Virus record (IMG/VR): IMGVR_UViG_3300046006_002139
Location: 1 to 26,660 of that record
From: a virus
Length of the DNA: 26,660 bases
Strand: one strand, 5' to 3'
Both the position numbers and the translations under genes were made by a program. A model generated the notes under the pieces. The model ran no database searches. It worked only from the letters and a program-made list of their open reading frames with translations, and had not been told where the DNA came from. This document shows positions 3,395 through 25,198 of this stretch, in pieces (position 1 is the first letter of the stretch; each line of letters begins with the position of its first letter).

Positions 3395-3688
3395 TTATTT
3401 ATTTTTCCAATTTTCAATGCAGTCTCTAGATCTTGCTGCAAGATCGTACTGTTCAACATCAGCAAAGTATAGCATAGAACGCTCAAGCGAGTCAAGTATT
3501 CCAACTATATCTTTAATAATGAATTTTGTTATTCCTGCTTCAGTTTTAAGTAAAGCAACTTCAACTCGATTACTTCCATCTGGATGTAAAAGTTTATGTT
3601 CACATTGAACCAACACATCTCTGTAGATATCCTCCTTGTGTGCGAGGACCCAATTTGGTATGGGTTGATCTACCGTGTATAGCTTCAT
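3395..3688 (-). CDS. Small protein with C-terminal UVR-like motif
   Basis: 97 residues, starting at ATG 3688 (MKLYTVDQPIPN), 5 nt after the amidotransferase stop. A longer frame to 3775 exists but would overlap that gene by 82 nt and is unlikely. The C-terminus (about 70-97, LERSMLYFADVEQYDLAA then RSRDCIENWKNK) fits the UVR motif, a two-helix hairpin found in UvrB, UvrC, ClpC and McsA, with the usual pattern acidic-x-Y-x-x-AA-x-x-RD-x-I. In those proteins it mediates protein-protein contacts. The N-terminal 65 residues show no known domain. A second protein with the same kind of C-terminus is encoded at 13092-13508. Function unknown; not assigned to nucleotide excision repair. Confidence 0.78.
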   Translation of the reverse strand: MKLYTVDQPIPNWVLAHKEDIYRDVLVQCEHKLLHPDGSNRVEVALLKTEAGITKFIIKDIVGILDSLERSMLYFADVEQYDLAARSRDCIENWKNK

Positions 3689-3693
3689 AGCTT

Positions 3694-4272
3694 CTATTGT
3701 ATTATTTTTTGTAATTTGCATATAAACCATTCTTGCGCAGGAGTGCCATTCATTTCCGTATGTTCCGGGTGCCACTGTACTGCAAATTCTTTTGTTTCTT
3801 TATTCTCTATTGCTTCAACGATTCCATCAGTTGTTACATCTATAACTTCATATTGAGTTACTTCCTTTTCTTTTACTCCTTGGTGGTGTCTTGAGTTTAC
3901 AAGAAGACCATTTTGAGTTGTGTGCCAAGAAGATTGACCTCGCCAATCTCCTGATATTGTTGTATGAATAATTTCTTTTACGTAATCAGGTATATGATCA
4001 ATGAAAGCATTTCCACTTTCATTTAAATAAACCATTAACTGTAAACCTCTGCATATTCCTACAATAGGTTTTCCTAATTCTCGAAATTTTTTGTACAAAT
4101 AAATTTCATATTCATCACGTCCATCTCGCATTCCAATATCAGCACCGCCTGGTAATAATAAGAAGTCTGCAATCTCAGGATCTTCTTCTCTAGAATAACC
4201 AGCCTTATTCATCAAGTCTATGTAAGGTTCAATGTATAATGGAAATTCTCCAGTTGGTATATAGTATGTCAT
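3694..4272 (-). CDS. Class I glutamine amidotransferase-like protein (peptidase C26 / PuuD-like)
   Basis: The 192-residue protein has the full set of class I glutamine amidotransferase landmarks. LLLPGGADIG (38-47) lines the oxyanion region, GICRGLQ (72-78) holds the nucleophile C74, NSRHHQG (126-132) is typical of the gamma-glutamyl hydrolase (C26) branch, and VQWHPEH (165-171) supplies H168 and E170. All catalytic residues are present, so it is probably active, hydrolysing glutamine or a gamma-glutamyl amide. The length is a little shorter than bacterial PuuD-type enzymes (about 250), and the N-terminus is abbreviated. No synthase partner domain is fused or adjacent. It sits between the propeller-fibre gene (31-nt gap) and a UVR-motif gene (5-nt gap), in the same operon as tail appendages. 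The substrate cannot be inferred. Confidence 0.9.
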   Translation of the reverse strand: MTYYIPTGEFPLYIEPYIDLMNKAGYSREEDPEIADFLLLPGGADIGMRDGRDEYEIYLYKKFRELGKPIVGICRGLQLMVYLNESGNAFIDHIPDYVKEIIHTTISGDWRGQSSWHTTQNGLLVNSRHHQGVKEKEVTQYEVIDVTTDGIVEAIENKETKEFAVQWHPEHTEMNGTPAQEWFICKLQKIIQ

Positions 4273-6227: not shown

Positions 6228-10244
<4,017 letters not shown>

Positions 10245-10258
10245 TTATTATTGTATTT

Positions 10259-13090
10259 TTAATTCACTCCTATATTAATTGCACCTAATTGATTCAGAGT
10301 TCTGTACAATCTATAGTTGGTAGTAACACCATTACCGTTTGTCACAGGAACGATTTGATAATACCAGCCGTTCTGAACTTGGTTATATAAAGGATCATCA
10401 GAAACTGTCACCATTCCTACTGGGAATCCACCAGCAAAGAATCCACTAGTAGGTGAACTTACTGACGGTGAACCTAACGCGTCGTCCCATGCAAAATATT
10501 TGTAAGTACCAGAAGTCGTAAACGAGTATGTACCATTTTTAGTAGTCGTTGATATTGGCAATGAGGTTAATGCAGCAATTCCTGCTGAAGTTAAAGTTGT
10601 TGCTGGCGCTGGGCCGTAGAAAATTTTAAAATTCCATCTTACAGAATAGTTACGAGTAACCGGTCCTCCATTAGTATTTGTAGCTTGTATAAGAAAATTA
10701 CGCACACCTGGTAAATTTTGTGTTATTGAAGGATACACTGAAGTATACGGAGTAGCACTGAATGCTAAAGCTGTACCTCCTGGGTTTATCGGTATATTTC
10801 CCCCCGGTAAACCTTCAACATCGTATAAATTAATTGAGTTAGGTATGATATTTGCCGCGTTAGACGCAGTCCATGTATAAATTCTATTTGCCGCAATAGT
10901 AGCACCTACTTCTAAAGATGTTGCTTGACCAGTCATTCCAAACGATGTAAACTGTGGAACCTGATACGGATATAAAAGTGCGTCCCACATTTGTTGCATA
11001 TTTTGGTTTGTAAATGTAGAGCCAGCAGGGATACCACCAATACCTACAGCAGTAGGTGTTGAGTTACTATAAGTAACATTAATACCTGTCCATCCTGTGT
11101 CATAATCCGCACTAGATAATTTAACTAAAACTTGTCCGGTCGTACCACCTGTTGGGCCAAGACTTGCAGGGCCAGTTGGACCAGTTGGACCAGTATCACC
11201 AGTAGGTCCTGTTACTCCCGCTCCAGTTTCTCCGGTAGCTCCAGTTGGGCCAGTAGGACCTGTTACACCAATGCCAGTTGCTCCAGTAGGACCTATAGGA
11301 CCGCCCGCAGGACCAGTAGGTCCAACATCTCCAGTAGCTCCAGTAGGGCCGGTCGGACCAGGAACAGTTGAATCAGCACCCGTAGGTCCAGTAGGCCCAG
11401 GTACTGTTGAAGGTGCGCCCGAGGGACCAGGTGCACCAGGAATACCTTGTTGTCCTGTAGGACCAGTTATACTTACACCCGTTGCTCCAACAGGTCCTGT
11501 AGGCCCAGTAGGCCCAGGTACTGTTGAAGGAGCACCAGGAATACCTGTAGGTCCAGGGACGGTTGAAGCAGGACCAGTTGCACCAGTTGCACCAGCAGGA
11601 CCGGTTGCTCCAGTTTTACCAGTAGCACCCACAGCGCCTGCTGGACCTGTTACACCAGTAGCACCAATAGGGCCAGTAGGGCCAGCAGCACCAGTGTCAC
11701 CCGTTATTCCAGCAGGGCCTGTAGGACCAGTAGCTCCAGTAGGGCCACCAGCAGCACCAGTTGGGCCAGGAGGTCCAACTATACTTCCGCCAGCAATAGG
11801 AATTAAACTCCCTGCTGCAATAGAAGCTGCTAAGCTAGAACTATAATGATTATCAATTACTTGATATATTATGTGTGAGTTACGATCTAAAATTATTGAG
11901 TCTGATACCCAAGAACGATCCGACTCATATAACTGTTCTGAATTTTTTTGAACATATAATAAGTCAGGTGGGTTAAGAGCTTGTACCTCATACGTTGAGT
12001 TATTAGTTGCATTACTTAAAGGTCTTAATTGATGAGTAGAAAAAACTCCATAGTTAGCAGGTACAAAAACTACACCTAATACCAATTCATCGTCTGGTAT
12101 AACCGGTGGTTGAAGTATTAAGTAATCTGATACATCACCCAAAGTAATAAATGTAGTTGTAGTTAAAGTAGATGGCTTAGAAATACTAGCAGTACCAACA
12201 CCAACACCTGTAATTACGGTTCCGTATGGTAAACCTTCAGCTAAAACAATATCACCAATTGTAATTCCAGGAGTTTGTGGAGTAATACCAGTTATTGTAG
12301 TAGAACCTTGTGTTAAGTTTGCATAAAACCCTAATTGATTACCGAAAGCATCAATTGAAACTGCATACGCGCCAGAATTAACAGTTCCTGTGCTTGGTGA
12401 TGATAATGTTATTCCGTAATCATAAACCGCGGTTGCTGTAATTCCTGGAGCTAATCCTGGACCAATGATAGCATCACCAATGTTTATTCCGCTAACAGTC
12501 CCAGTCCCTAATGTAAATGCTAAATTAACACTTGCATTATCATTTCCTAAAAAAGTAACAGGTCTTCCTACAGTATATAAATCACCTTCATACACTTTAA
12601 ATTTACCACGATACTCATCAGTAAAACCTGGTGTAGTTGTTTGATTAGGATAGTCACTAGAAAAAGTAATTACATCATAACGCCCACGAGATAAGTCAGG
12701 GTTAGGATTAATTGTAAAATCACCAAGCGCAGTAGATTCAACATGCCAATATGATTTTCCGTTAATACGTGCTGAACCGCTTTTAGCTGCAAGGTAAAGA
12801 GGGCTACCACTGCCAGACGCAGGTTTCTTTAAAACTAAGCCATCAAGAATAGCTTTAGGCGCATTCAGTTCAAGAATTTCTTGACCATCATTACTATAAA
12901 CGCGTCCAGACGAAAGGTCAATAACCTCTTCGCCTTTATAAATAGTTCTTTCATTGAAATCGTTTGGATTGTCAATATGGTTGGTACCAGGTATAGCCGC
13001 ATTAGGACGTCTATCAGTATTTGTAACAGAATTGTAAAATTTTACAATTCGTCTAACAAACGAGGTAATAAGATTTGTTTTGTTGCTCAC
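10259..13090 (-). CDS. Collagen-like virion appendage protein, 943 aa
   Basis: Begins at GTG 13090, one base after the upstream gene's stop. Residues 1-435 form a globular N-terminal region that looks phage-structural ([19 protein letters not shown], later [18 protein letters not shown] and a second related [18 protein letters not shown] unit). Those two segments share the G-D-x-I/V, G-L-x-x-G, T-x-V/I pattern and may be a duplicated small barrel. A Gly-X-Y tract follows at about residues 437-650 with PGPTGPTG and ATGPTG triplets. The C-terminal 290 residues are globular, with [18 protein letters not shown] at their start, a phrase commonly following collagen stalks in phage fibres. It is followed by the 1337-residue collagen-like gene after 17 nt. 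The two probably build connected or alternative trimeric fibres; this is inferred. Confidence 0.86.
11148..11780 (-). repeat. Gly-X-Y collagen tract of the 943-aa protein
   Basis: About 210 codons of Gly-X-Y repeats, with Pro-Thr and Ala-Thr as the usual X-Y pairs and several interruptions of the type [10 protein letters not shown]. The same interruptions occur in the neighbouring 1337-residue protein, suggesting the two stalks share ancestry or exchange segments. Boundaries approximate. Confidence 0.88.
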
Positions 13091-13091
13091 T

Positions 13092-13508
13092 TTAATTTCT
13101 TATTGCTTTTTTATTTAGTGCATCTCTAATTTCAGCTGCATATTCATAGTCTTCTTTCTCGACTGCTTTTGCTAAGGCTTTTTCTAAAGCACCTCTAGAT
13201 TTTTTGTCTTCTTCATAAACAAATTCAGCTAAACGAAAAATAACTCGAATGTCTCCAATTGAATCGTCTTCACGATCCCAAAAGATTATCCAGCTACCGT
13301 ATGAAATGTAGTTTAGATTTTCTAGCAGCATGTGGTCAAATATGCTATGTAATTCATTTCGTAATTCTGAAACTGATGGCAATCTTTTAAAAGTTTCTTT
13401 ATCATCAGTAATTTCCCATAGGATATTATTGTTCTTATGATAACTTTTAATTTTACGCCAGTCTATACTTTGCATTACTCTCTCGAAGGCTACAACATAT
13501 TGATTCAT
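13092..13508 (-). CDS. Hypothetical protein with C-terminal UVR-like motif
   Basis: 138 residues. The N-terminal 95 residues form an alpha/beta domain I do not recognise ([40 protein letters not shown]). The C-terminus [20 protein letters not shown] followed by RDALNKK matches the UVR two-helix motif better than the copy in the 97-residue protein at 3395-3688. ATG 13508 is preceded at 13528-13540 by the ATAATGATATATA element, and the stop is one base before the GTG of the 943-residue fibre gene. It therefore opens the appendage operon. A chaperone or assembly role is possible from position but unproven. Confidence 0.8.
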
Positions 13509-13527
13509 GACACAACACTATTTTTAC

Positions 13528-13540
13528 TATATATCATTAT
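13528..13540 (-). promoter_or_regulatory. Candidate phage late promoter (ATAATGATATATA) of the appendage operon
   Basis: The 13-mer ATAATGATATATA on the minus strand ends 19 nt before ATG 13508. The identical 13-mer occurs before the gene at 18490, and shorter GATATATA forms precede other genes at similar distances. It is read as a -10-like late promoter element. Confidence 0.6.
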
Positions 13541-16311: not shown

Positions 16312-16875
16312 TTATTTTGCTTCGTTTTCTAACGCAATTTCAGCAATAAGTTGATCTTCATATTCAGATACAGCTCCTTGGTCAATTGCATTCATTACTT
16401 GACCTAAATCTCTCTCCATTTGGTCTTTCTTATCTTTGTCTTGTTTAGCACGAGATAAAGCGTCTGTCACCGGTTTTAAGATTTCATTAAAGTAGTGTAC
16501 AGCTGAATTTAAACCAACTCCTGTTTCTTTTGACAAGAAGTAGTAAATTGCTTCAAGAGCTAAGATAGGTAACATAAGTTCATTACGTTTACCAGATTTT
16601 AAATCTTTAACAATAGTTTCTAACTGACGAGCTGTTTCAATGATTCCCATTGATTCAGAGAAATTCCATTTAGCATCGTTAGTAATAAAATAATGTAAAG
16701 CTTCTGCTACTTTACCTTTACCTTCAATAAGATATTGCTTTGATTCCAATTCTTTACGGAAATCATTTAATCTTTGTTCAAGATCTGCGGCAAGTTGTTT
16801 TCTTTGTTCTAATTTTCCATCTACATCGATAGGACCTTTTTCAATAGTAAGAACGGCGTCTTTAGTTTTAGTCAT
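16312..16875 (-). CDS. Hypothetical helical protein, 187 aa
   Basis: Unrecognised. Almost entirely helical by composition: a coiled coil at about 20-50 (LEQRKQLAADLEQRLNDFRK), a more globular helical centre (LPILALEAIYYFLSKETG), and a second charged helix at 140-187. No membrane segment or catalytic motif is visible. ATG 16875 is preceded by GATATATA at 16896-16903, and it is followed closely by the membrane-anchored 96-residue gene, so it probably starts the transcript that runs through to 13584. Confidence 0.75.
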   Translation of the reverse strand: MTKTKDAVLTIEKGPIDVDGKLEQRKQLAADLEQRLNDFRKELESKQYLIEGKGKVAEALHYFITNDAKWNFSESMGIIETARQLETIVKDLKSGKRNELMLPILALEAIYYFLSKETGVGLNSAVHYFNEILKPVTDALSRAKQDKDKKDQMERDLGQVMNAIDQGAVSEYEDQLIAEIALENEAK

Positions 16876-16895: not shown

Positions 16896-16903
16896 TATAT
16901 ATC
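16896..16903 (-). promoter_or_regulatory. Candidate late promoter GATATATA before the 187-aa gene
   Basis: On the minus strand AAGATATATAAATT ends its TATA core 20 nt before ATG 16875. It matches the element found upstream of six other genes in this window in sequence and spacing. Confidence 0.55.
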
Positions 16904-16921: not shown

Positions 16922-17365
16922 TTAAAATAAGTTAATAACCCAGTTAATTGCGCTCATGATCTCAGTACGAAACACAAAAAGTAATATAAGATAAAAAAGG
17001 TTAACGAATACTTTCCATGTTGTTAAGTATTTAAAAATTGGATAGTACACAATAAGATAAGAATCTGAACCAGGAACTTTTTCACCTGATACTCCAACCA
17101 CTTCACTTAACCCTAATGAGTTAATGTATTTATGACAAGGTATCATTCTTTCACCAAGTTTAATGTCAAGCATTTTTTGATCATCACCTACATCAGCAGG
17201 ATTAGGATTAAAGACGGTGTAAATTCTACCAACCCAATCAACTCTTAAATTAAATCTAATCCAATCTGCGGTTCCGATATTCTTGCGAATAGCTCTTCTT
17301 AATATAATGTAATTTCTTGCATCACTTAAAAAGTTATTTAGATTTCTGAATCTGAATAGTCTCAT
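16922..17365 (-). CDS. Hypothetical protein with C-terminal membrane helix, coupled to the sigma gene
   Basis: 147 residues. The first 115 residues are basic and soluble (FRFRNLNNFLSDARNYIILR, RVDWVGRIYTVFNPNPADVG), and residues 120-147 form one hydrophobic segment, so this is a tail-anchored or C-terminally anchored protein. The start ATG overlaps the sigma-factor stop as ATGA (17365-17362), a typical sign of translational coupling. Being coupled to a sigma factor invites comparison with membrane-bound anti-sigma factors. It lacks the usual N-terminal zinc anti-sigma domain or extracytoplasmic part, so that is only a suggestion. Family not recognised. Confidence 0.77.
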   Translation of the reverse strand: MRLFRFRNLNNFLSDARNYIILRRAIRKNIGTADWIRFNLRVDWVGRIYTVFNPNPADVGDDQKMLDIKLGERMIPCHKYINSLGLSEVVGVSGEKVPGSDSYLIVYYPIFKYLTTWKVFVNLFYLILLFVFRTEIMSAINWVINLF

Positions 17366-18012
17366 GATATTTCTTGATTGTATAATTTAACTAAGTTAGG
17401 ATCTTTTTTCAAAATGTTTTCCCTAACTAATTCTCGTGCCTTACGGATACGAGTTCTAACGGTATTGTGTTTCCAACCAAGTTCTTCAGCAATCTCTTCG
17501 TATTTCTTTTTATCAATTTCACGAAGAGTTAAAACAGTTTTGTATAATTCTGGTAGGTTTCCAATTTCCTCAACTGCCATATCATATAGTAAATCTATTG
17601 GGTGGTCAGTATCAGATAAGAATGCGTCAGATTCTGTTATAGGACCTTTTGCTTCCATGTTAATACCCATTTCTGCCATTGCATCATATGAATAAGTTCT
17701 CTTTTTACTTCTGAAAAATAGCAGAGCCTCATTTCGAGCAATACGATAAACCCAAGTACTGAAATTCCAATACGGATCATACTGATGAATCTTTTGCCAT
17801 ACCTTAGCAAAAGCGGTTGCGATAACCTCGTTACGGTCATCTTGATTAGGAACCAACTCTCTCAAGTAATATGAGATACTTGGCTTAAGACGATGATACA
17901 CATTGGTAAAATCTCTTTCAGATTTAGTTTCAAAAAATGCTAATCCCATTTCTTGAAGTGATTTCGGTTTAGTTGACATAGAGTTTGCTTGAGAATTTTT
18001 AGTTAGTGCCAT
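17362..18012 (-). CDS. Phage-encoded sigma-70 family (ECF-like) RNA polymerase sigma factor
   Basis: 216 residues with the two-domain ECF layout. Region 2 spans about 34-105 (DFTNVYHRLKPSISYYL, then FSTWVYRIARNEALLFFRSK, the promoter-melting helix). A linker of about 40 residues follows, then region 4 at about 149-201 (LPELYKTVLTLREIDKKKY, then ELGWKHNTVRTRIRKARE as helix-turn-helix). No region 1.1 or 3 is present. ATG 18012 is used; M12 is an alternative. It should bind host core RNA polymerase and redirect it, plausibly to the GATATATA elements in this window, as gp55 does for T4 late genes although gp55 is a different branch. Its own upstream region carries TATATTTG, a host-type element. 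The stop overlaps the next gene by ATGA. Confidence 0.93.
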   Translation of the reverse strand: MALTKNSQANSMSTKPKSLQEMGLAFFETKSERDFTNVYHRLKPSISYYLRELVPNQDDRNEVIATAFAKVWQKIHQYDPYWNFSTWVYRIARNEALLFFRSKKRTYSYDAMAEMGINMEAKGPITESDAFLSDTDHPIDLLYDMAVEEIGNLPELYKTVLTLREIDKKKYEEIAEELGWKHNTVRTRIRKARELVRENILKKDPNLVKLYNQEIS

Positions 18013-18046
18013 TAGGATCGTTTAAGTTAAGTTATTATTTATTTTA

Positions 18047-18082
18047 CAAATATAATAAATTTATTGTGAAATAAAAAACAAA
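18047..18082 (-). promoter_or_regulatory. Candidate host-type promoter of the sigma-factor gene
   Basis: On the minus strand TATATTTG (18054-18047) fits the Bacteroidota -7 consensus TAnnTTTG, with TTTG at 18082-18079 upstream. The 24-nt spacing is slightly longer than usual. It lies about 35 nt before ATG 18012. No GATATATA element is seen here, which would fit transcription of this gene by host polymerase before the late phase. Confidence 0.42.
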
Positions 18083-18160
18083 TAGGAATAAAGTTTTTAA
18101 CAAATGACTAAACAGGAAAGAATCGCATAGCAATCCTGTCCTGTCGCATTTATAAGATAA

Positions 18161-18490
18161 TTAGTTAGCTGGTTCTTCAACCTTTGTAAGTTTTCTTACA
18201 GATTCTTTTTTCTCTCCTTTAGGAGCAGGTGCTACTTCTGGTTCTCCAGAAATACCTTCGTTTTCAGTTTCTTGAGTTACAATAACTGGAAGACGGTTAA
18301 ACAATTCAGCTACTTCATTGTAAGGAAATTCTCCAAGGAATTGTACAGTCTGGTTTAATTCAGCTTCTGTAAAAATGAAACCTTCACGGTTAATCAAATT
18401 CATGAAAGCAAATACTGATGTAAATTTCTTAGTGTTAAGAATGTCCGTTACACGAGTTTTAAACTCTGGTGTTACTACGTAATTTTGCAT
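18161..18490 (-). CDS. Hypothetical protein, 109 aa, with Pro/Glu-rich tail
   Basis: Unrecognised. Residues 1-72 form a compact helical domain (TPEFKTRVTDILNTKKFTSV, TEAELNQTVQFLGEFPYNEV), followed by a disordered Glu/Pro/Lys tail (GEPEVAPAPKGEKKES). ATG 18490 is preceded by the full ATAATGATATATA element at 18512-18524, identical to the one before the appendage operon, which argues for strong late expression and perhaps a virion or assembly role. The 148-nt gap after it before the sigma gene contains only a weak inverted repeat and the sigma promoter candidate. Confidence 0.75.
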   Translation of the reverse strand: MQNYVVTPEFKTRVTDILNTKKFTSVFAFMNLINREGFIFTEAELNQTVQFLGEFPYNEVAELFNRLPVIVTQETENEGISGEPEVAPAPKGEKKESVRKLTKVEEPAN

Positions 18491-18530: not shown

Positions 18531-19067
18531 TTAGTTCTTGAAATCTGAAAAAAGTTTAGATAAAAATCTAAATTTATCAGTCATACGATAATCCATTGCT
18601 AAATCCCAATCTTCGGTTTTAATATAGTCAGCAAAGTCTTTATCGTCGGTTTTCATTCGACGTTTAACTTCTTTAGGATCATCACCACGTTTTAAAGATC
18701 TATCTAATCTTACTTCATCTGGTGTATGTATAAAAATAACAACCAAGTTTTCTCTACCTACTGCATGTATAAGTTTTTCTAATCCTCTTGGTGTTAAGAT
18801 AAGAAGATCACAATTCTTATAATCACTTTTTGTTAAACCGTAGTACCAATCATTAAATTCGTCCCATTCAACAAACTGTTCATTAGCACGTAACTTTTCA
18901 AAGTAATCACGAGTTACAAACCTATAACTAATGTCAGGTATTTCATTATGACGGATTGGTCTTGATGTAGTTGATAGAGCAGGACGGCAACCATTTTCTT
19001 GTAACATTGTTGCCAACTCAGTTTTACCTGAGCAAGATTTTCCAATAAGGACTATTTTCTTTTCCAT
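18531..19067 (-). CDS. Guanylate kinase-like nucleotide kinase
   Basis: 178 residues with a guanylate-kinase core. The P-loop is GKSCSGKT (9-16), the GMP-binding segment STTSRPIR (32-39) corresponds to the family's S-x-T-T-R-x-x-R, and ISYRFV plus FVEWDEFNDWYYG (65-77) match the D-Y-x-F and E-x-x-x-Y-G elements. The LID region carries DEVRLDRSLKRGDD (117-130). It would convert (d)GMP to (d)GDP with ATP in the cytoplasm, feeding nucleotide supply during phage replication. It is somewhat shorter than bacterial Gmk (about 205), and the family also includes non-catalytic members, but key residues appear retained. ATG 19067 overlaps the upstream small membrane-protein gene by 16 nt. Confidence 0.87.
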   Translation of the reverse strand: MEKKIVLIGKSCSGKTELATMLQENGCRPALSTTSRPIRHNEIPDISYRFVTRDYFEKLRANEQFVEWDEFNDWYYGLTKSDYKNCDLLILTPRGLEKLIHAVGRENLVVIFIHTPDEVRLDRSLKRGDDPKEVKRRMKTDDKDFADYIKTEDWDLAMDYRMTDKFRFLSKLFSDFKN

Positions 19068-19291
19068 AGGATAGCAAGTAATCCGAAGTAGACTACCAAT
19101 GATTCTAAAAAGTTAAACGGGATTTTGTTGAATTTTGTAAGTGTTAAGTATAACGCTCCGTAGAAGATAAGGAACTTTGCAATAAATACTAATAGAAATG
19201 CCACTCTAGAAACAGGAGTCTTTTCAGCATGTTCAGATGCTTCGTCAGACATTGTCTTAGTGTATAATTTTTGTTGGTTCTTGTCAATCAT
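19052..19291 (-). CDS. Small two-helix membrane protein, 79 aa
   Basis: Residues 1-27 are polar; two hydrophobic segments follow at about 29-49 (VAFLLVFIAKFLIFYGALYL) and 59-75 (FNFLESLVVYFGLLAIL), ending WKRK. It could be a holin by size and topology, but nothing specific supports that and no endolysin gene is adjacent. ATG 19291 is preceded at 19311-19318 by GGAATATA followed by AATAC, a variant of the late element. The end overlaps the kinase gene by 16 nt, so both share a transcript. Confidence 0.72.
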   Translation of the reverse strand: MIDKNQQKLYTKTMSDEASEHAEKTPVSRVAFLLVFIAKFLIFYGALYLTLTKFNKIPFNFLESLVVYFGLLAILWKRK

Positions 19292-19992: not shown

Positions 19993-22900
19993 TTACTTAC
20001 TTAACTTTCCATTTATGTAAAGGTTAGTTACGTGTAATTCGGCAACTACCCCACCAGATCCAGGAACCGAAGGGTTATTAGTTGATGCCGGTCCAGCAGC
20101 TTTCTTAGTAGATGCATTACCACCAGCAGCAGCGCTAGCAGCACCTGCTGTTTTAGTTGCCGCAGTCTTAACTGGATTAGTTGCAGCAGCTGCGTCTTTA
20201 CCTACGCCTTTATTAGCATTATTTAAGTCTGCTTGCGCCTGCGCTTGTTCTTTAAGTGCTTTTGTAGTTGCTGAAAGTTTACCAGGATCAACACTTGCTA
20301 TAGTTTTTAATGCATCAGCGTATGTCTTTAAGTTAGAAGCATCATCTTTACCAAACGCATCCCATATTTTAACGAACGATCCCATTTCTTTTGTAAACTG
20401 ACCAAAAGTTTTAGCAAACTTTTCAAATGGAGTATTAATTTTTGTCATGCCTTCAGTAATTGTGGCAAACTTTTTGTACAGCGTAAGTTTCTTATCGTCC
20501 ATTTTATCAAATGATGAACCCATCTTTACTAAAGAACCAGCAAAGCCAGTTAACACACCGTCAATGTTTTTGCCATTCTTAGATGACTCTTCAATATTTT
20601 TTGTAATGTTAAGATAAGATTCAGAAACACTTAATATTTGTTTTGCAGCAGAAGACATTTTTGGCATAAACTCAATTGCGGTATCTATTTCATCTTCATA
20701 TTTGTCAATGTATATACCTAAGTTAGCAAATACTTGTGGAAATGCGTATAGCAATTTCTTTGCATTCTCAATTGCCATTGGAACCGCATCAGCAAAACTA
20801 ATTACACCTTTTGCTACAAGTTTAGCATCCTTTGTACCTGGATTAATTACTTCATTAATAGTTGCCTGTCCACCTGCAAGTTTAAGAACCATATCAGCCA
20901 TTTTGCTAATAGGATCAGTTACTTTACCAGCTGCTTCTAATCCAGCCTCAAGAGCACTGTCTGTAAACCAAGAACTTCCGTTTTTATAGTCTTTTCCAAA
21001 TTGTGTAAGAGGCTGCGTTAATGTTGTTAGGATAAGCCCAACATTATCAGCAGCAAGTGTAAAATCTTCAGCTCCTAACTTACGAGGAGTTCCGGTTGGA
21101 ACCAGCTTGCCATCAACAACAGCATAGTCAACTATACTAAGATTTGCCATGTCAGCAACACCTTTTGCAATAGATGCAATAGCATTACCTATTTTTCCAG
21201 CAGCTTGAATACCTTTTACGGTATAGCCGTCCCCCCAAAGTGCTCCTTCACCAGCAGATGCCCACATACCAAATTCAGTAAGAGGTTGTTGTAGTGTAGT
21301 TAAAATTAATGAGGTATTAAGACTTGCTAACAAGAAATCTCCTGCATTTAATTTACGAACTGCTTTAGGAACAAGCTTGCCATCTCTAACTTCATAATCA
21401 ACAACATTAAGTTGAGCCATGTCAGAAACACCTTTAGCTATACTAGCAATAACATTTCCGATGCCTGCTGCTGCTTTAATACCTTTTGCCATGTAACCAG
21501 CCCCAATAGTAAACGGACCAAATCCGGTTTCACCCATTGTTGACCACATACCAAAATTTGTAAGTGGCATTGCAAGTGCATTAAGTATCATTGCAGTATT
21601 TGGTCCAACTGCCTGGATTTCTTCATTAGTTAATTTAACTAATCTTTTAGGTACAAGTTTTTTAGCATCTTTATCATATTCCATTTCTGTGAATGATAAA
21701 GTAGCCATTGCTTTTACTCCTGACGCTAATGAAACTAATGCATTACCGATTAAAGCAATCACAGGAATTGCTGCAAGTAATTTAACCATACCCATTACAC
21801 CTACACCATCAAGTGCATGCGCAAATCCTTGAACCGTACTTGTAAGAGCGTTTTGTAATGATTCTCCATCAGATTCTTGCCATCCAATTTCTTTAAACTT
21901 ACCTAAAGCATATGTAAGAGGTATTAAAGCAAGTGAAGCAGGTATAAGAACCGCGGCACCAATAGCAGCAGGTATTGCAACTAACCCAAACTTAGCAAGT
22001 GATATACCAATTTGAGCAATAGCATATCCAAGGTTATCGGTTTTTTCTTTTGTAAAATCCGCTTTTGATAATATCCAAAGTGCACCAGCAAAAACTACAA
22101 GTGATGCAGCTAATGTTAATAAAACACCAGCACCAATTTCAGCAAACAGTGCAACTGCCGGATTTCCTAATACATAAGCAGCTAATCCTAAACCGACTAT
22201 AGCAGCACCCACCATAACTAACTTAAGACCTAAAGTAACAGGATCATCTTTTATAAGACTACCTACAATTGCTACACCAGCGGCAAAGCCTATCATAGGT
22301 GCAATTAATGAATCTAAAACTACAGATCCTTTTTTAATATCTTTATCAAATTTACCAAGTCCATACGCCGCAAGACCAATAACTACCATAGCAGCAGCAA
22401 GAGCGCCGGATCCTTTTAAAATTTCTTTCCATACTAGACCAGCAAGTGCCATAACTCCTCCAAATAATACTAGAGGTTTAGCCATACTGCCTAATGTTTT
22501 AACACCTTTATTAATCTGCGTTGCTTTCTTTCCTACCTCATTCATTACTATTGAAATAAATCCAATAGCAAGTCCTAACACAACTGCGCCTAAGGCTATT
22601 TGAACATATACAAGTCCAGCAAGAGCCATTGTTACACCAAATAATAATAGTGGTTTAATCATGCTGTTCATAGACTTGATACCTCTATTAATCATTAAGG
22701 AATTTTTTCCTACTTCCTTTAGCACAAACATGATTGCACTTATAGATAATACAAAGGCTAATGTACCAATAGCAAATTTATCAACAAAGTATCCGATAGC
22801 TATCATGGTTAATGCAAATAACATTACACCTTTAGCAATCTTCATTAGTGCTACTATCGAGTTAGTACCTTTTGTAGTTGCAGCAGTTGCATCTTTAAGC

Positions 22901-23931
22901 GCCCATAAAATAGCTTTTATACTTAATACAAAAAGTAATACACCAACTATATAAAGTGGAGCAAGTAATGCTATTCCTACCATAGTTAATGCAAATAGCA
23001 TTACTGACTTACCTAATTTAAGTAAAGACTCTAATTGATTAGCACCTTTGCCGGAAGCAGCATTCGCGGATTTTAATGACCATAAGATAGCCTTTATACT
23101 TAATACAAAAAGTAATACCCCAACTGCATAAAGTGGAGCAGTCAACGCAATAGTAACCATCGCTAAGGCAAACCAAATTAATGATGATCCTAGTTTAGTT
23201 ATTGTTTCAATTCCTGATGCGCCCTTTCCTGTAGCAGCGGTTGCATCTTTTAATGACCATATGATAGCTTTTATACTCATTACGAATAATAAAACACCAA
23301 CTGCATATAGTGGTGCAGTTACTGCAATTGCCACCATAGCCAAGGCAAACCAAATTAATGATTTTCCTAAGTTTACTATTGTTTCTATCCCACTAGCACC
23401 TTTAGCAGTTGCAGCTGTGGCATCTTTTAATGACCAGATAATCATTTTTAAACTTAAGGCAAATACCAAAGTTCCAAGCGCAACCGCAGGCGCCAATATT
23501 GCTATTGCCGTCATGCCTATTGCAAAATGTAGTAAACCTTTAGACATTCCAGTTAAGGCTTCTATCAGTTTTACGCCGTCAACTTCTTTTAAAGTTGTGC
23601 CTGCTTCTTTTAGTCCTTCAGAAAAATCTATTAAGAATCCTTTAACTAAAGAACCTGCCTTAGGACTAAGTATTTTGGTAGCTAAGATTAGTTTGCTGAG
23701 AGACCCAGCCATTCCGCCAATAGCAATAGCTTCTTCCGCGGTATTAACACGAGGCCCAGCATCAGCACCTTCAACTTTAGACTTTGTAGTTTTATTTTCG
23801 CCGTCCTTCTTATCTGCAGAATCAGCACCTTCCTTTTTCTTACTGCTATTTGGATTGAGATAGCTCTCAATCTTAGCAGTTAAGGAAACTAATTGGGTTA
23901 GTTTTTCATTGGCCTGGTTGGCTACTGACAT
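19993..23931 (-). CDS. Tail tape measure protein, 1312 aa, with two tandem repeat families
   Basis: Position after sheath, tube and chaperone-like genes, very large size, and Ala/Leu/Ile-rich helical composition identify a tape measure, which sets tail length and often enters the host envelope on ejection. After a coiled, charged N-terminus (1-125), about eight tandem repeats of 59 residues occur (about 128-600). Each has two strongly hydrophobic helices and a basic turn, for example KAIIWSLKDATAATGKG. A second family with period about 93 residues covers roughly 735-1080, marked by a strand plus DGKLVPK and then QPLTEFGMW. The C-terminal part is helical, then an Ala/Thr/Gly-rich linker and a conserved-looking end VAELHVTNLYINGKLSK. 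ATG 23931 lies 21 nt after a GATATATA element. No lytic domain was seen. Confidence 0.9.
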   Translation of the reverse strand: MSVANQANEKLTQLVSLTAKIESYLNPNSSKKKEGADSADKKDGENKTTKSKVEGADAGPRVNTAEEAIAIGGMAGSLSKLILATKILSPKAGSLVKGFLIDFSEGLKEAGTTLKEVDGVKLIEALTGMSKGLLHFAIGMTAIAILAPAVALGTLVFALSLKMIIWSLKDATAATAKGASGIETIVNLGKSLIWFALAMVAIAVTAPLYAVGVLLFVMSIKAIIWSLKDATAATGKGASGIETITKLGSSLIWFALAMVTIALTAPLYAVGVLLFVLSIKAILWSLKSANAASGKGANQLESLLKLGKSVMLFALTMVGIALLAPLYIVGVLLFVLSIKAILWALKDATAATTKGTNSIVALMKIAKGVMLFALTMIAIGYFVDKFAIGTLAFVLSISAIMFVLKEVGKNSLMINRGIKSMNSMIKPLLLFGVTMALAGLVYVQIALGAVVLGLAIGFISIVMNEVGKKATQINKGVKTLGSMAKPLVLFGGVMALAGLVWKEILKGSGALAAAMVVIGLAAYGLGKFDKDIKKGSVVLDSLIAPMIGFAAGVAIVGSLIKDDPVTLGLKLVMVGAAIVGLGLAAYVLGNPAVALFAEIGAGVLLTLAASLVVFAGALWILSKADFTKEKTDNLGYAIAQIGISLAKFGLVAIPAAIGAAVLIPASLALIPLTYALGKFKEIGWQESDGESLQNALTSTVQGFAHALDGVGVMGMVKLLAAIPVIALIGNALVSLASGVKAMATLSFTEMEYDKDAKKLVPKRLVKLTNEEIQAVGPNTAMILNALAMPLTNFGMWSTMGETGFGPFTIGAGYMAKGIKAAAGIGNVIASIAKGVSDMAQLNVVDYEVRDGKLVPKAVRKLNAGDFLLASLNTSLILTTLQQPLTEFGMWASAGEGALWGDGYTVKGIQAAGKIGNAIASIAKGVADMANLSIVDYAVVDGKLVPTGTPRKLGAEDFTLAADNVGLILTTLTQPLTQFGKDYKNGSSWFTDSALEAGLEAAGKVTDPISKMADMVLKLAGGQATINEVINPGTKDAKLVAKGVISFADAVPMAIENAKKLLYAFPQVFANLGIYIDKYEDEIDTAIEFMPKMSSAAKQILSVSESYLNITKNIEESSKNGKNIDGVLTGFAGSLVKMGSSFDKMDDKKLTLYKKFATITEGMTKINTPFEKFAKTFGQFTKEMGSFVKIWDAFGKDDASNLKTYADALKTIASVDPGKLSATTKALKEQAQAQADLNNANKGVGKDAAAATNPVKTAATKTAGAASAAAGGNASTKKAAGPASTNNPSVPGSGGVVAELHVTNLYINGKLSK
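20690..21725 (-). repeat. Second tape-measure repeat family, about four units of roughly 280 nt
   Basis: Units share IGNxIASIAKGVxDMAxLxxV, then DYxVxDGKLVPK, then NTxLILTTLxQPLTxFGMW. Copies 2 and 3 are most alike; copies 1 and 4 are divergent and carry insertions. Boundaries and period are estimated by eye. Confidence 0.75.
22132..23550 (-). repeat. First tape-measure repeat family, about eight units of 177 nt
   Basis: Period of 59 codons, counted directly on copies 2 and 3 which are nearly identical (LGKSLIWFALAMVAIAVTAP, AVGVLLFVMSIKAIIWSLK). Copies 5-8 diverge progressively and lose the Trp and the ATAATGKGA turn. The gradient suggests recent tandem duplication at the N-terminal end. 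Confidence 0.85.
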
Positions 23932-23952: not shown

Positions 23953-23965
23953 TATATATCATATT
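23953..23965 (-). promoter_or_regulatory. Candidate late promoter GATATATA before the tape measure
   Basis: Minus-strand AATATGATATATAC, core ending 21 nt before ATG 23931 and just inside the gap after the chaperone-like frame. Same motif and spacing as the other late elements. Confidence 0.55.
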
Positions 23966-23967
23966 AC

Positions 23968-24234
23968 CTATAACTTAAAGTTAGGCATAGATGGCATTGT
24001 AAAGTTTGGCATACTCATTTTAGGCATACTACTTTGTGCTTGACTCATAGTATTGCTTGCCGATGTATCTTGAGATTCTTCTTCTTTTCTACGTCTTTCG
24101 CCTTCTTCTTCATTAAAGTTTTTCAAATTCTCCATTAAGATCTCAGCGCGATAAAATTCCAGCCTGTCTAATTCAGAAGGCTGGAGTTTTAAAACTTTTA
24201 ATAAAATGAACTCAGCCTCAAACCAGTTCTCCAA
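23968..24234 (-). CDS. Tail assembly chaperone-like frame (gp51 / T-domain analogue), probably reached by frameshift
   Basis: About 88 residues; the usual start would be a TTG at 24234, with no ATG until 24135 (residue 34). The sequence EAEFILLKVLKLQPSELDRL followed by EFYRAEILMENLKNF resembles the second half of tail assembly chaperones (such as lambda T or T4 gp51 by position): acidic helix, P-S-E-L-D, then a Tyr/Arg helix. A charged linker (EEEGERRRKEEES) and a Met/Pro repeat end (PKMSMPNFTMPSMPNF) follow. It overlaps the gp26-like gene by 17 nt, and its frame is open upstream to 24279, so production as a +1 (or -2) frameshift fusion is likely. If initiated independently, TTG 24234 is the best candidate. 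Confidence 0.68.
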   Translation of the reverse strand: MENWFEAEFILLKVLKLQPSELDRLEFYRAEILMENLKNFNEEEGERRRKEEESQDTSASNTMSQAQSSMPKMSMPNFTMPSMPNFKL

Positions 24235-25198
24235 AGATATCTGAAATAAGGAAAATAGATTTGACTCCTCCTTGAAAGTTTAGGGGAGCTTTCCCTTCGC
24301 CTCCGCCCGATGTTTGGTATCTGATACCAGGATTAATTGAATCTGATAACATTTCAACAAGTTTGTCCATTACAGATATTTTTTGTATAGTCCAACCGAA
24401 TGAATCTTGTACAGCTTTATCGTAAGAGTTTTGATTAAGTAGCTTCCAATCGCCAAAAGCAAATGGTGCATACTTAATAAATGTTTTGTCAAAAGATTGT
24501 CCTGCTTGTTGTTTTTGTTTGATGTAATTCTTGATAAAAGTCATTACACCTAAAGATGGTAAAAAGATTTTAAAGTTTTCACCGTTTTTCATTTGGATAT
24601 TAAAACATTGATCTTCAGCGTTATAATACTTCATTAGCACTTCATCAGGATTAAAGTAATCTAATGAATCCTTAGTAACTTCTATTTTTTGATTAGCGCC
24701 ATCTTCATCAGATACACTAACAAATAAACGGTTCTCGCCATTCTTGAATGTATAATCACGTACTGCAAATATTAAGTAGAAACGGTCAATCTCTTTAAGA
24801 TCTTTAAATGTACCGGGTTTTCCAGGAACTTTAATTCTAACACACTTTTCCATGATAAAGTTTAGCATATCATCAAGAGCTAGTAAATCATTATCATCAA
24901 TAGTAGACCAGTGACGGATTTCTGAAACCGTAGCAGCGCGAATAGCTACTTGAGTTCCAGCTGCATAAAACATTCCTTGTGAAGGTAAAGATTCCATTGG
25001 CATATTCTTCCAACCAATTTCAGCTGCTAAAACATCATCTTCAGTTTCATAATCAGTAAACTTTTGTGCTCTACCTAATGTTGGTTTTGCTGGTTCATTA
25101 GCAATTACTTCTGCTACTTCGGATGCGTTTTCACCTTGTTGTATTAAAAGAGCTGCTTCTTTTTCCATTTGCTCCTTTAAGTTAATTTCTTCTGCCAT
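24218..25198 (-). CDS. T4 gp26-like baseplate/tail assembly protein upstream of the tape measure
   Basis: 326 residues from ATG 25198 (MAEEINLKEQ). A frame extension to 25234 would overlap the promoter motif and is rejected. Residues 1-55 are acidic and helical. Near residue 66 the motif MPMESLPSQGMFYAAGTQVA, followed by IRAATVSEIR, recalls the T4 gp26 / T4_baseplate family, in which a conserved LPS-x-G segment precedes a strand. A C-terminal helical half follows (QQAGQSFDKTFIKYAPFAFG). It lies between tail tube and tape measure, where tail assembly chaperones are encoded in many phages, and its 3' end overlaps a chaperone-like frame. The family call is from memory and moderately sure; a role in tail or baseplate assembly is well supported by position. 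Confidence 0.72.
   Translation of the reverse strand: MAEEINLKEQMEKEAALLIQQGENASEVAEVIANEPAKPTLGRAQKFTDYETEDDVLAAEIGWKNMPMESLPSQGMFYAAGTQVAIRAATVSEIRHWSTIDDNDLLALDDMLNFIMEKCVRIKVPGKPGTFKDLKEIDRFYLIFAVRDYTFKNGENRLFVSVSDEDGANQKIEVTKDSLDYFNPDEVLMKYYNAEDQCFNIQMKNGENFKIFLPSLGVMTFIKNYIKQKQQAGQSFDKTFIKYAPFAFGDWKLLNQNSYDKAVQDSFGWTIQKISVMDKLVEMLSDSINPGIRYQTSGGGEGKAPLNFQGGVKSIFLISDIFGELV

Follow-up and report, generated by a model that had tools for sequence, protein, structure and literature searches.

A phage ECF-type sigma factor as a candidate middle sigma beside a gp55-type late sigma in T4-superfamily myoviruses of Bacteroidota

Introduction

Which genes does an ECF-type sigma factor serve when it is encoded by a T4-like phage, and does it take the place of the phage's own late sigma? 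The textbook example of a phage appropriating the host sigma is T4, whose middle genes are transcribed through MotA and AsiA. The DNA analysed here (the window, an IMG/VR fragment of 26,660 bp) encodes the C-terminus of a tail sheath, a tape measure protein and a tube- or baseplate-like protein related to those of PAU, PTm1 and the Lak phages, and belongs to a myovirus of the T4 superfamily; that its hosts are Bacteroidota is read from its relatives and its promoter type. It also carries a sigma factor gene, for which an earlier sequence-only reading proposed a two-step cascade: the host polymerase would make the sigma, and the sigma, instead of a gp55-type factor, would then direct late transcription from the element found before structural genes, GATATATA.

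A canonical ECF-type sigma factor

The sigma gene is a real ORF of 216 codons (Table 1), and its product consists of sigma2 and sigma4 only. Sigma2 matches Pfam Sigma70_r2 at residues 39-106 (47.6 bits, cut-off 24), while sigma4, with its helix-turn-helix, matches Sigma70_r4_2 at residues 148-194 (49.9 bits, cut-off 25.7); the intact regions 2 and 4 claimed in the sequence-only reading are thus both present above the Pfam cut-offs. The two regions are joined by a linker of about 41 residues, within the limit of fewer than 50 that marks ECF factors. The protein scores 65 bits against the NCBIfam sigma70-ECF superfamily (TIGR02937, cut-off 42.9), and the solved structures closest to it are SigW (4e-15) and E. 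coli sigmaE (1e-12). It falls below the curated cut-off of the Bacteroidota sigma-70 subfamily TIGR02985 (84.8 versus 126.4 bits) and has no match to PHROG 234, the gp55-type late sigma family. The 216-residue protein is a canonical ECF-type (group IV) sigma factor.

Close orthologues with 60-93% identity are carried by 17 viral loci, on contigs of up to 238 kb. When cellular genomes were scanned with the ECF alignment, through two peptide patterns only, just two remote matches came up, so that no close cellular source of the sigma was located. Directly 3' of the ECF gene, in all loci read and including two contigs in which the ECF sigma is about 35% identical (G037 and G044), lies a gene for a membrane-type protein of 147 residues. 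A structure search with this neighbour gave no informative fold match and no anti-sigma similarity was found; it may be an anti-sigma factor or another partner of the ECF sigma.

Table 1. Genes and regulatory elements of the window, with positions counted from its first nucleotide.
Feature	Position	Strand	Evidence or context
ECF-type sigma factor gene	17362..18012	-	Pfam, NCBIfam, structure matches, orthologues
147-residue protein gene, C-terminal hydrophobic helices	16922..17365	-	start overlaps sigma gene stop by 4 nt
-7 box TATATTTG (TAnnTTTG) of sigma gene promoter	18047..18054	-	upstream alignment; consensus PMC9723704
-33 position, TTTT, 20-nt spacer	18075..18078	-	TTT[TG] block kept across relatives; TTTG in L010/L011
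Palindromic site, ATTTGTTAAAAACTT in the window, consensus AGTTGTTAATAACTT	18091..18105	-	upstream of the -33 element; 18/18 sequences
Terminator-like hairpin, approximate limits	18105..18150	-	between the 109-residue protein gene and the sigma gene
Class S promoter AAGAACT-N16-ATATAA	19310..19338	-	before 19052-19291; without late element; conserved footprint block
Class S promoter AAGAACT-N16-ATATAA	18511..18539	-	before 18161-18490; overlaps GATATATA at 18519-18512; kept in six genomes
Class S promoter AAGAACC-N16-ATATAA	25224..25252	-	before 24218-25198; overlaps GATATATA at 25232-25225
Class S promoter AACT-N16-ATATAA	4278..4303	-	before 3694-4272 (glutamine amidotransferase-like); conserved in G003
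Late element GATATATA	23953..23960	-	before the tape measure gene 19993-23931
Late element GATATATA	16896..16903	-	before 16312-16875
Late element GATATATA	13528..13535	-	before 13092-13508

A host-type promoter and a palindromic site before the sigma gene

When the 18 orthologous loci are aligned upstream of the sigma gene, three elements prove conserved: a -7 box, a TTT[TG] block at a 20-nt spacing from it and, farther upstream, a palindrome. The box has the form of the Bacteroidota sigmaA -7 box, TAnnTTTG (PMC9723704); the closest loci keep it in an unchanged position, and the most distant have drifted to sequences resembling TTATTTTTAT. The host-type promoter claimed in the sequence-only reading accordingly stands in its TATATTTG box at 18054-18047, but the TTTG at 18082-18079 that was named with it lies 24 nt from that box and is probably ruled out as the -33 box by this spacing. 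The same reading was right that the sigma gene lacks the structural-gene element, no GATATATA being present before it. A hairpin separates the sigma gene from the gene upstream (fold of 18086-18162, -21.9 kcal/mol). Given its host-type promoter, the ECF sigma is probably made by the host polymerase in a first step. Host-type promoters in a relative, G012, stand before early small genes.

The palindrome AGTTGTTAATAACTT lies 10-12 nt upstream of host-type promoters and recurs at about nine promoters in G003, where 13 of 13 matches are intergenic (shuffle, 1). There the combination of palindrome and host-type promoter precedes the ECF gene and the genes for an NAD-dependent ligase, NAMPT, ribose-phosphate pyrophosphokinase (Prs) and RNA ligases. 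From its placement the palindrome is a candidate activator or operator site, and it resembles the binding site of a regulator that controls a delayed-early regulon. A second copy occurs in the window at 2958-2944 (minus strand). The NAMPT and Prs genes of G003 (55426-56943 and 58142-59044) form an NAD salvage pathway pair and share the palindrome-type promoter with the NAD-dependent ligase. The repeat TTTTGGTTAATTTTAACTATC of G003, considered as an ECF promoter, was rejected since it belongs to host-type TTTG-N20-TAATTTT promoters.

A bipartite promoter class before replication genes

Another promoter class, class S, combines an AAC-type -35 element with the -10 sequence ATATAA and was first noticed in one alignment; upstream of 19052-19291 it forms a footprint, a conserved AAGAACT...GAATATAA block. 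The exact form, AAGAAC-N17-ATATAA, is found near start codons at a spacing of 17 only (3 of 3 in the window, 8 of 9 in G003) and, in genomes with the ECF gene, is confined to the coding strand, with counts of 9/0 in G003 and 8/0 in G002 and 0 for a reversed-pattern control. Contigs scanned after the motif had been fixed gave strand counts of 5/0 (G018), 5/0 (G020), 4/0 (G021) and 3/0 (G023). A relaxed form, AAC[TC]-N15/16-ATATAA at no more than 75 nt from starts, which was fixed after inspection of G020 and G027, occurs 4 times in the window, 17 times in G003, 8 in G014, 23 in G012, 8 in G020 and 17 in G027, against shuffle means of 0.1-0.5. The same scan is at chance in PAU, MaF61 and PTm1 (0 each) and pT24 (1), with 2 in MA9V-2. 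When all pairs of words at all distances were ranked with no motif given, the class S pair came first in G003 and in the top two in G012, and stood at the top in G027 as AAAC/TATAA.

Class S promoters precede the genes for DNA polymerase, the medium and large subunits of topoisomerase II, a UvsX-like recombinase, a DnaB-like helicase, the gp44 clamp loader and dUTPase/MazG, as well as those for SSB and exonuclease subunits, and are kept at the orthologues in G003, G012, G014 and G027 where these have a promoter of their own. Not all stand before replication genes: some are followed by tail, accessory or unknown genes. The three promoter classes (host-type, class S and GATATATA) differ in gene content.

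The form and the distribution of class S both point to the ECF sigma. ECF promoters characteristically have AAC in the -35 element (PMC8103513), and the predicted targets AAC[TC]-N15/16-ATATAA would share this feature. Their -10 sequence is not the CGT that is a hallmark of the classical, early-studied ECF members (PMC8103513), a departure that we do not take as decisive. Positive autoregulation is a further ECF hallmark, with listed exceptions (PMC8103513), from which this sigma departs, its gene being preceded by a host-type promoter, with class S absent. Across genomes, class S is strong where the ECF sigma is at least 58% identical, shifts to AAAAC in G027 (59%), is down to 3-4 copies in G037 and G044, where the ECF sigma is about 35% identical and its sigma4 helix differs, and is at chance in most phages lacking the ECF gene, although the motif-free genomes are also the more distant relatives, so that shared descent partly confounds the association of sigma and motif. 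PAU has AAC-type promoters (TGAAACTTT...TAGTA) alongside a different sigma, and an AAC-type -35 is thus not unique to this ECF family.

That a host ECF sigma reads the AAC-type promoters, leaving the phage sigma some other task such as redirecting host genes, is very unlikely in our estimate: Flavobacteria do possess several ECF sigmas (PMC9723704), but in F. psychrophilum the host promoters of ECF type that have been described carry CGT, not ATATAA, as their -10 box (PMC9723704), and class S tracks the phage gene, being at chance in most other Bacteroidota phages tested.

A gp55-type sigma and the late element

The window is a 26.7-kb fragment and the gp55 gene itself lies outside it. A sigma region 2 search of the relatives' contigs yielded, in six of them, a second and shorter match, an ORF of 114 residues; these six near relatives therefore carry both the same ECF gene and a gp55-type late sigma. 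The 114-residue protein matches PHROG 234, a family named late sigma transcription factor that includes T4 gp55 itself, at E values of 2e-12 to 2e-13 and aligns with Lak phages at 48% and with cyanophage gp55 at about 33%. With its AlphaFold model (pLDDT 85), Foldseek ranked first in the PDB the chain 7d7c_F (TM 0.71, E 0.01), which is T4 gp55 in the gp55-dependent open complex. A variable stretch is followed by a conserved C-terminal S[LI]S..N[LF]Y. motif, where model confidence is low. Searches for gp33 and gp45 with PF02916, phrog_223 and phrog_254 gave nothing convincing in these relatives or in PAU and PTm1, likely as a result of sequence divergence. An ECF control of gp55 through a site upstream of its gene, at 28102 of G012, was considered and dropped, the site lying inside the upstream ORF and its -35 not being kept in G014.

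Ten of ten T4-like Bacteroidota phages gave a PHROG 234 match when tested, those in PTm1 and MaF61 being weak. PAU, PTm1, pT24, MA9V-2 and MaF61 have no ECF-type region 4 or one that scores under the cut-off; in a set of 27 gp55-bearing contigs tested, 19 have the ECF family. Because gp55 is present both with and without class S, it is unable to explain the class S distribution. Nor is there support for a replacement of gp55 by the ECF sigma, as the sequence-only reading supposed: contigs whose ECF sigma is 93% identical also encode the gp55-type sigma, a finding that the reading itself had named as one that would overturn its proposal and that here applies to the group.

GATATATA occurs five times in the window, always 27-34 nt before a start codon (p ~6e-9), and ranks first or close to first among upstream 8-mers in G003, G014, G012, G020, G027, G037 and G044. 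Gp55-bearing phages without this ECF have the equivalents TATACATA (PAU, PTm1) and GATAAATA (MaF61). The late element of T4 is TATAAATA, and all four fit [TG]ATANATA. An information profile of 48 sites reveals no conserved -35 element upstream of GATATATA; T4 late promoters likewise have an 8-bp -10 element with no -35 (PMC2988020). To judge from this architecture, GATATATA behaves like a late promoter of the T4 type.

The ECF sigma and gp55 could share the middle and late work, with virion genes behind hybrid AAGAAC/GATATATA promoters turned on early by the former and later by the latter, an arrangement that we regard as improbable. Overlapping elements of this kind stand at 25252-25224 and 18539-18511, both kept in G003 and the first also in G014 and G020, which makes a minor ECF role at a few late genes possible, but hybrids number just 0-2 per genome and G012 and G027 have none. 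We consider it very unlikely that late transcription is the task of the ECF sigma, through direct recognition of GATATATA, as proposed in the sequence-only reading. This would accord with the strong tie of GATATATA to structural genes and with the AAGAAC found at ECF spacing by two of the five window copies; it is opposed by the variable -35 region across the 48 sites, by the gp55 homologue in relatives, by the equivalent elements in gp55 phages that lack this ECF family and by the full strength of GATATATA in G037 and G044 despite their different ECF sigma4.

Discussion

Taken together, the promoter classes and their distribution suggest that the phage ECF-type sigma is probably the middle (delayed-early) sigma of a T4-superfamily Bacteroidota myovirus, with gp55 serving the late genes. 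Host sigmaA polymerase would first transcribe the ECF gene from its TAnnTTTG promoter with the upstream palindrome. The ECF sigma with host core polymerase would then read the (A/g)AAC[T/C]-N15/16-ATATAA promoters of the DNA polymerase, exonuclease, clamp loader, DnaB-like helicase, UvsX, topoisomerase II, SSB and dUTPase genes, together with some accessory and tail genes. Finally, the 114-residue gp55-type sigma, encoded about 28 kb away in relatives, would direct late transcription from the -35-less GATATATA. The two-step cascade of the earlier reading would survive in its first step, the making of the ECF sigma by host polymerase, but not in its second, given the gp55-type sigma of the relatives. 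More tentatively, a large clade of Bacteroidota T4-superfamily phages may use a three-sigma cascade, in which a phage-specific ECF clade, possibly with a membrane-bound partner, would fully replace MotA/AsiA and some virion promoters would be read by the ECF sigma and then by gp55.

The ECF system would occupy the place of T4 MotA and AsiA. In both systems the replication genes are under a distinct middle promoter class, but T4 remodels host sigma70 whereas here a whole sigma factor is apparently supplied. With the T4 late system of gp55, gp33 and gp45 the phages share a gp55 homologue and an 8-bp, -10-only element (PMC2988020); they differ in the length of that homologue (114 residues versus 185 in T4), in the element itself (GATATATA) and in gp33 and gp45, which are not detectable by profile. 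Phage sigmas that recruit host RNA polymerase to middle and/or late genes are known from phiEco32 (gp36) and phage 7-11 (gp47), and a sigma of the phiEco32-like phage SU10 has been annotated as ECF (PMC4281155, PMC8948821). The promoters of 7-11 resemble class S in being bipartite with a 16-nt spacer. However, phiEco32 and 7-11 are enterobacterial podoviruses with one sigma for middle and late genes, or late genes only, and no gp55-type sigma described, and their promoter sequences, tAATGTAtA and GTAAtg-16-aCTA, differ from class S. Bacillus phage SPO1 has separate middle (gp28) and late (gp34) sigmas (PMC9429907), a division proposed here as well, except that here the late factor is of gp55 type and the middle factor a canonical ECF sigma.

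A survey reports two sigma types in T4-like jumbo phages, the second belonging to group 2, and in its passages on them assigns to that second sigma neither a promoter class nor a temporal role (PMC7824862); a core sigma factor is listed without detail for the aquatic Bacteroidota 'moraphages' (PMC12619734). Phage ECF-type sigmas (phiEco32) and middle sigmas (SPO1) are thus already known. What appears to be new here is the combination of an ECF sigma for replication genes with a gp55 late system: the open literature searched, which leaves subscription journals outside, yielded no such combination and, among T4-like phages, no ECF sigma reserved for middle or replication genes. If the proposed role is correct, a widespread branch of the T4 superfamily solved the middle switch with an ordinary ECF sigma and kept gp55 for the late genes. 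With its AAGAAC, AAAAC and lost forms, the set of sigma-promoter pairs would form a natural series for the study of changes in ECF specificity, the ECF sigma and class S would offer an orthogonal promoter system for Bacteroidota, and the promoter classes are so sharply defined that, for uncultured phages, they can serve to predict the expression class of a gene.

Several further features were observed. In PAU (NC_019521, L060-L070), some 28 promoters are nearly identical, TGAAACTTTCGAGGGTTTCGTAGTA..., with an AAC -35 element and, in many of them, a CGTA box; this phage also encodes a divergent sigma-like protein of 362 residues at 94-1182, apparently a different phage sigma-promoter pair. The 462-kb phage LR756500 (W05) encodes four sigma region 2 proteins as well as a gp55-type sigma and has GATATATA elements. 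On the minus strand of the window, a guanylate kinase-like protein is encoded inside the tail gene cluster (18531-19067), and two long collagen-like proteins of 1337 and 943 residues (6228-10241 and 10259-13090) are rich in G-x-T/P-G-P-T repeats. The proteins of 13092-13508 and 3395-3775, on the same strand, end in a UVR-like motif, the first with weak matches to UvrC and McsA.
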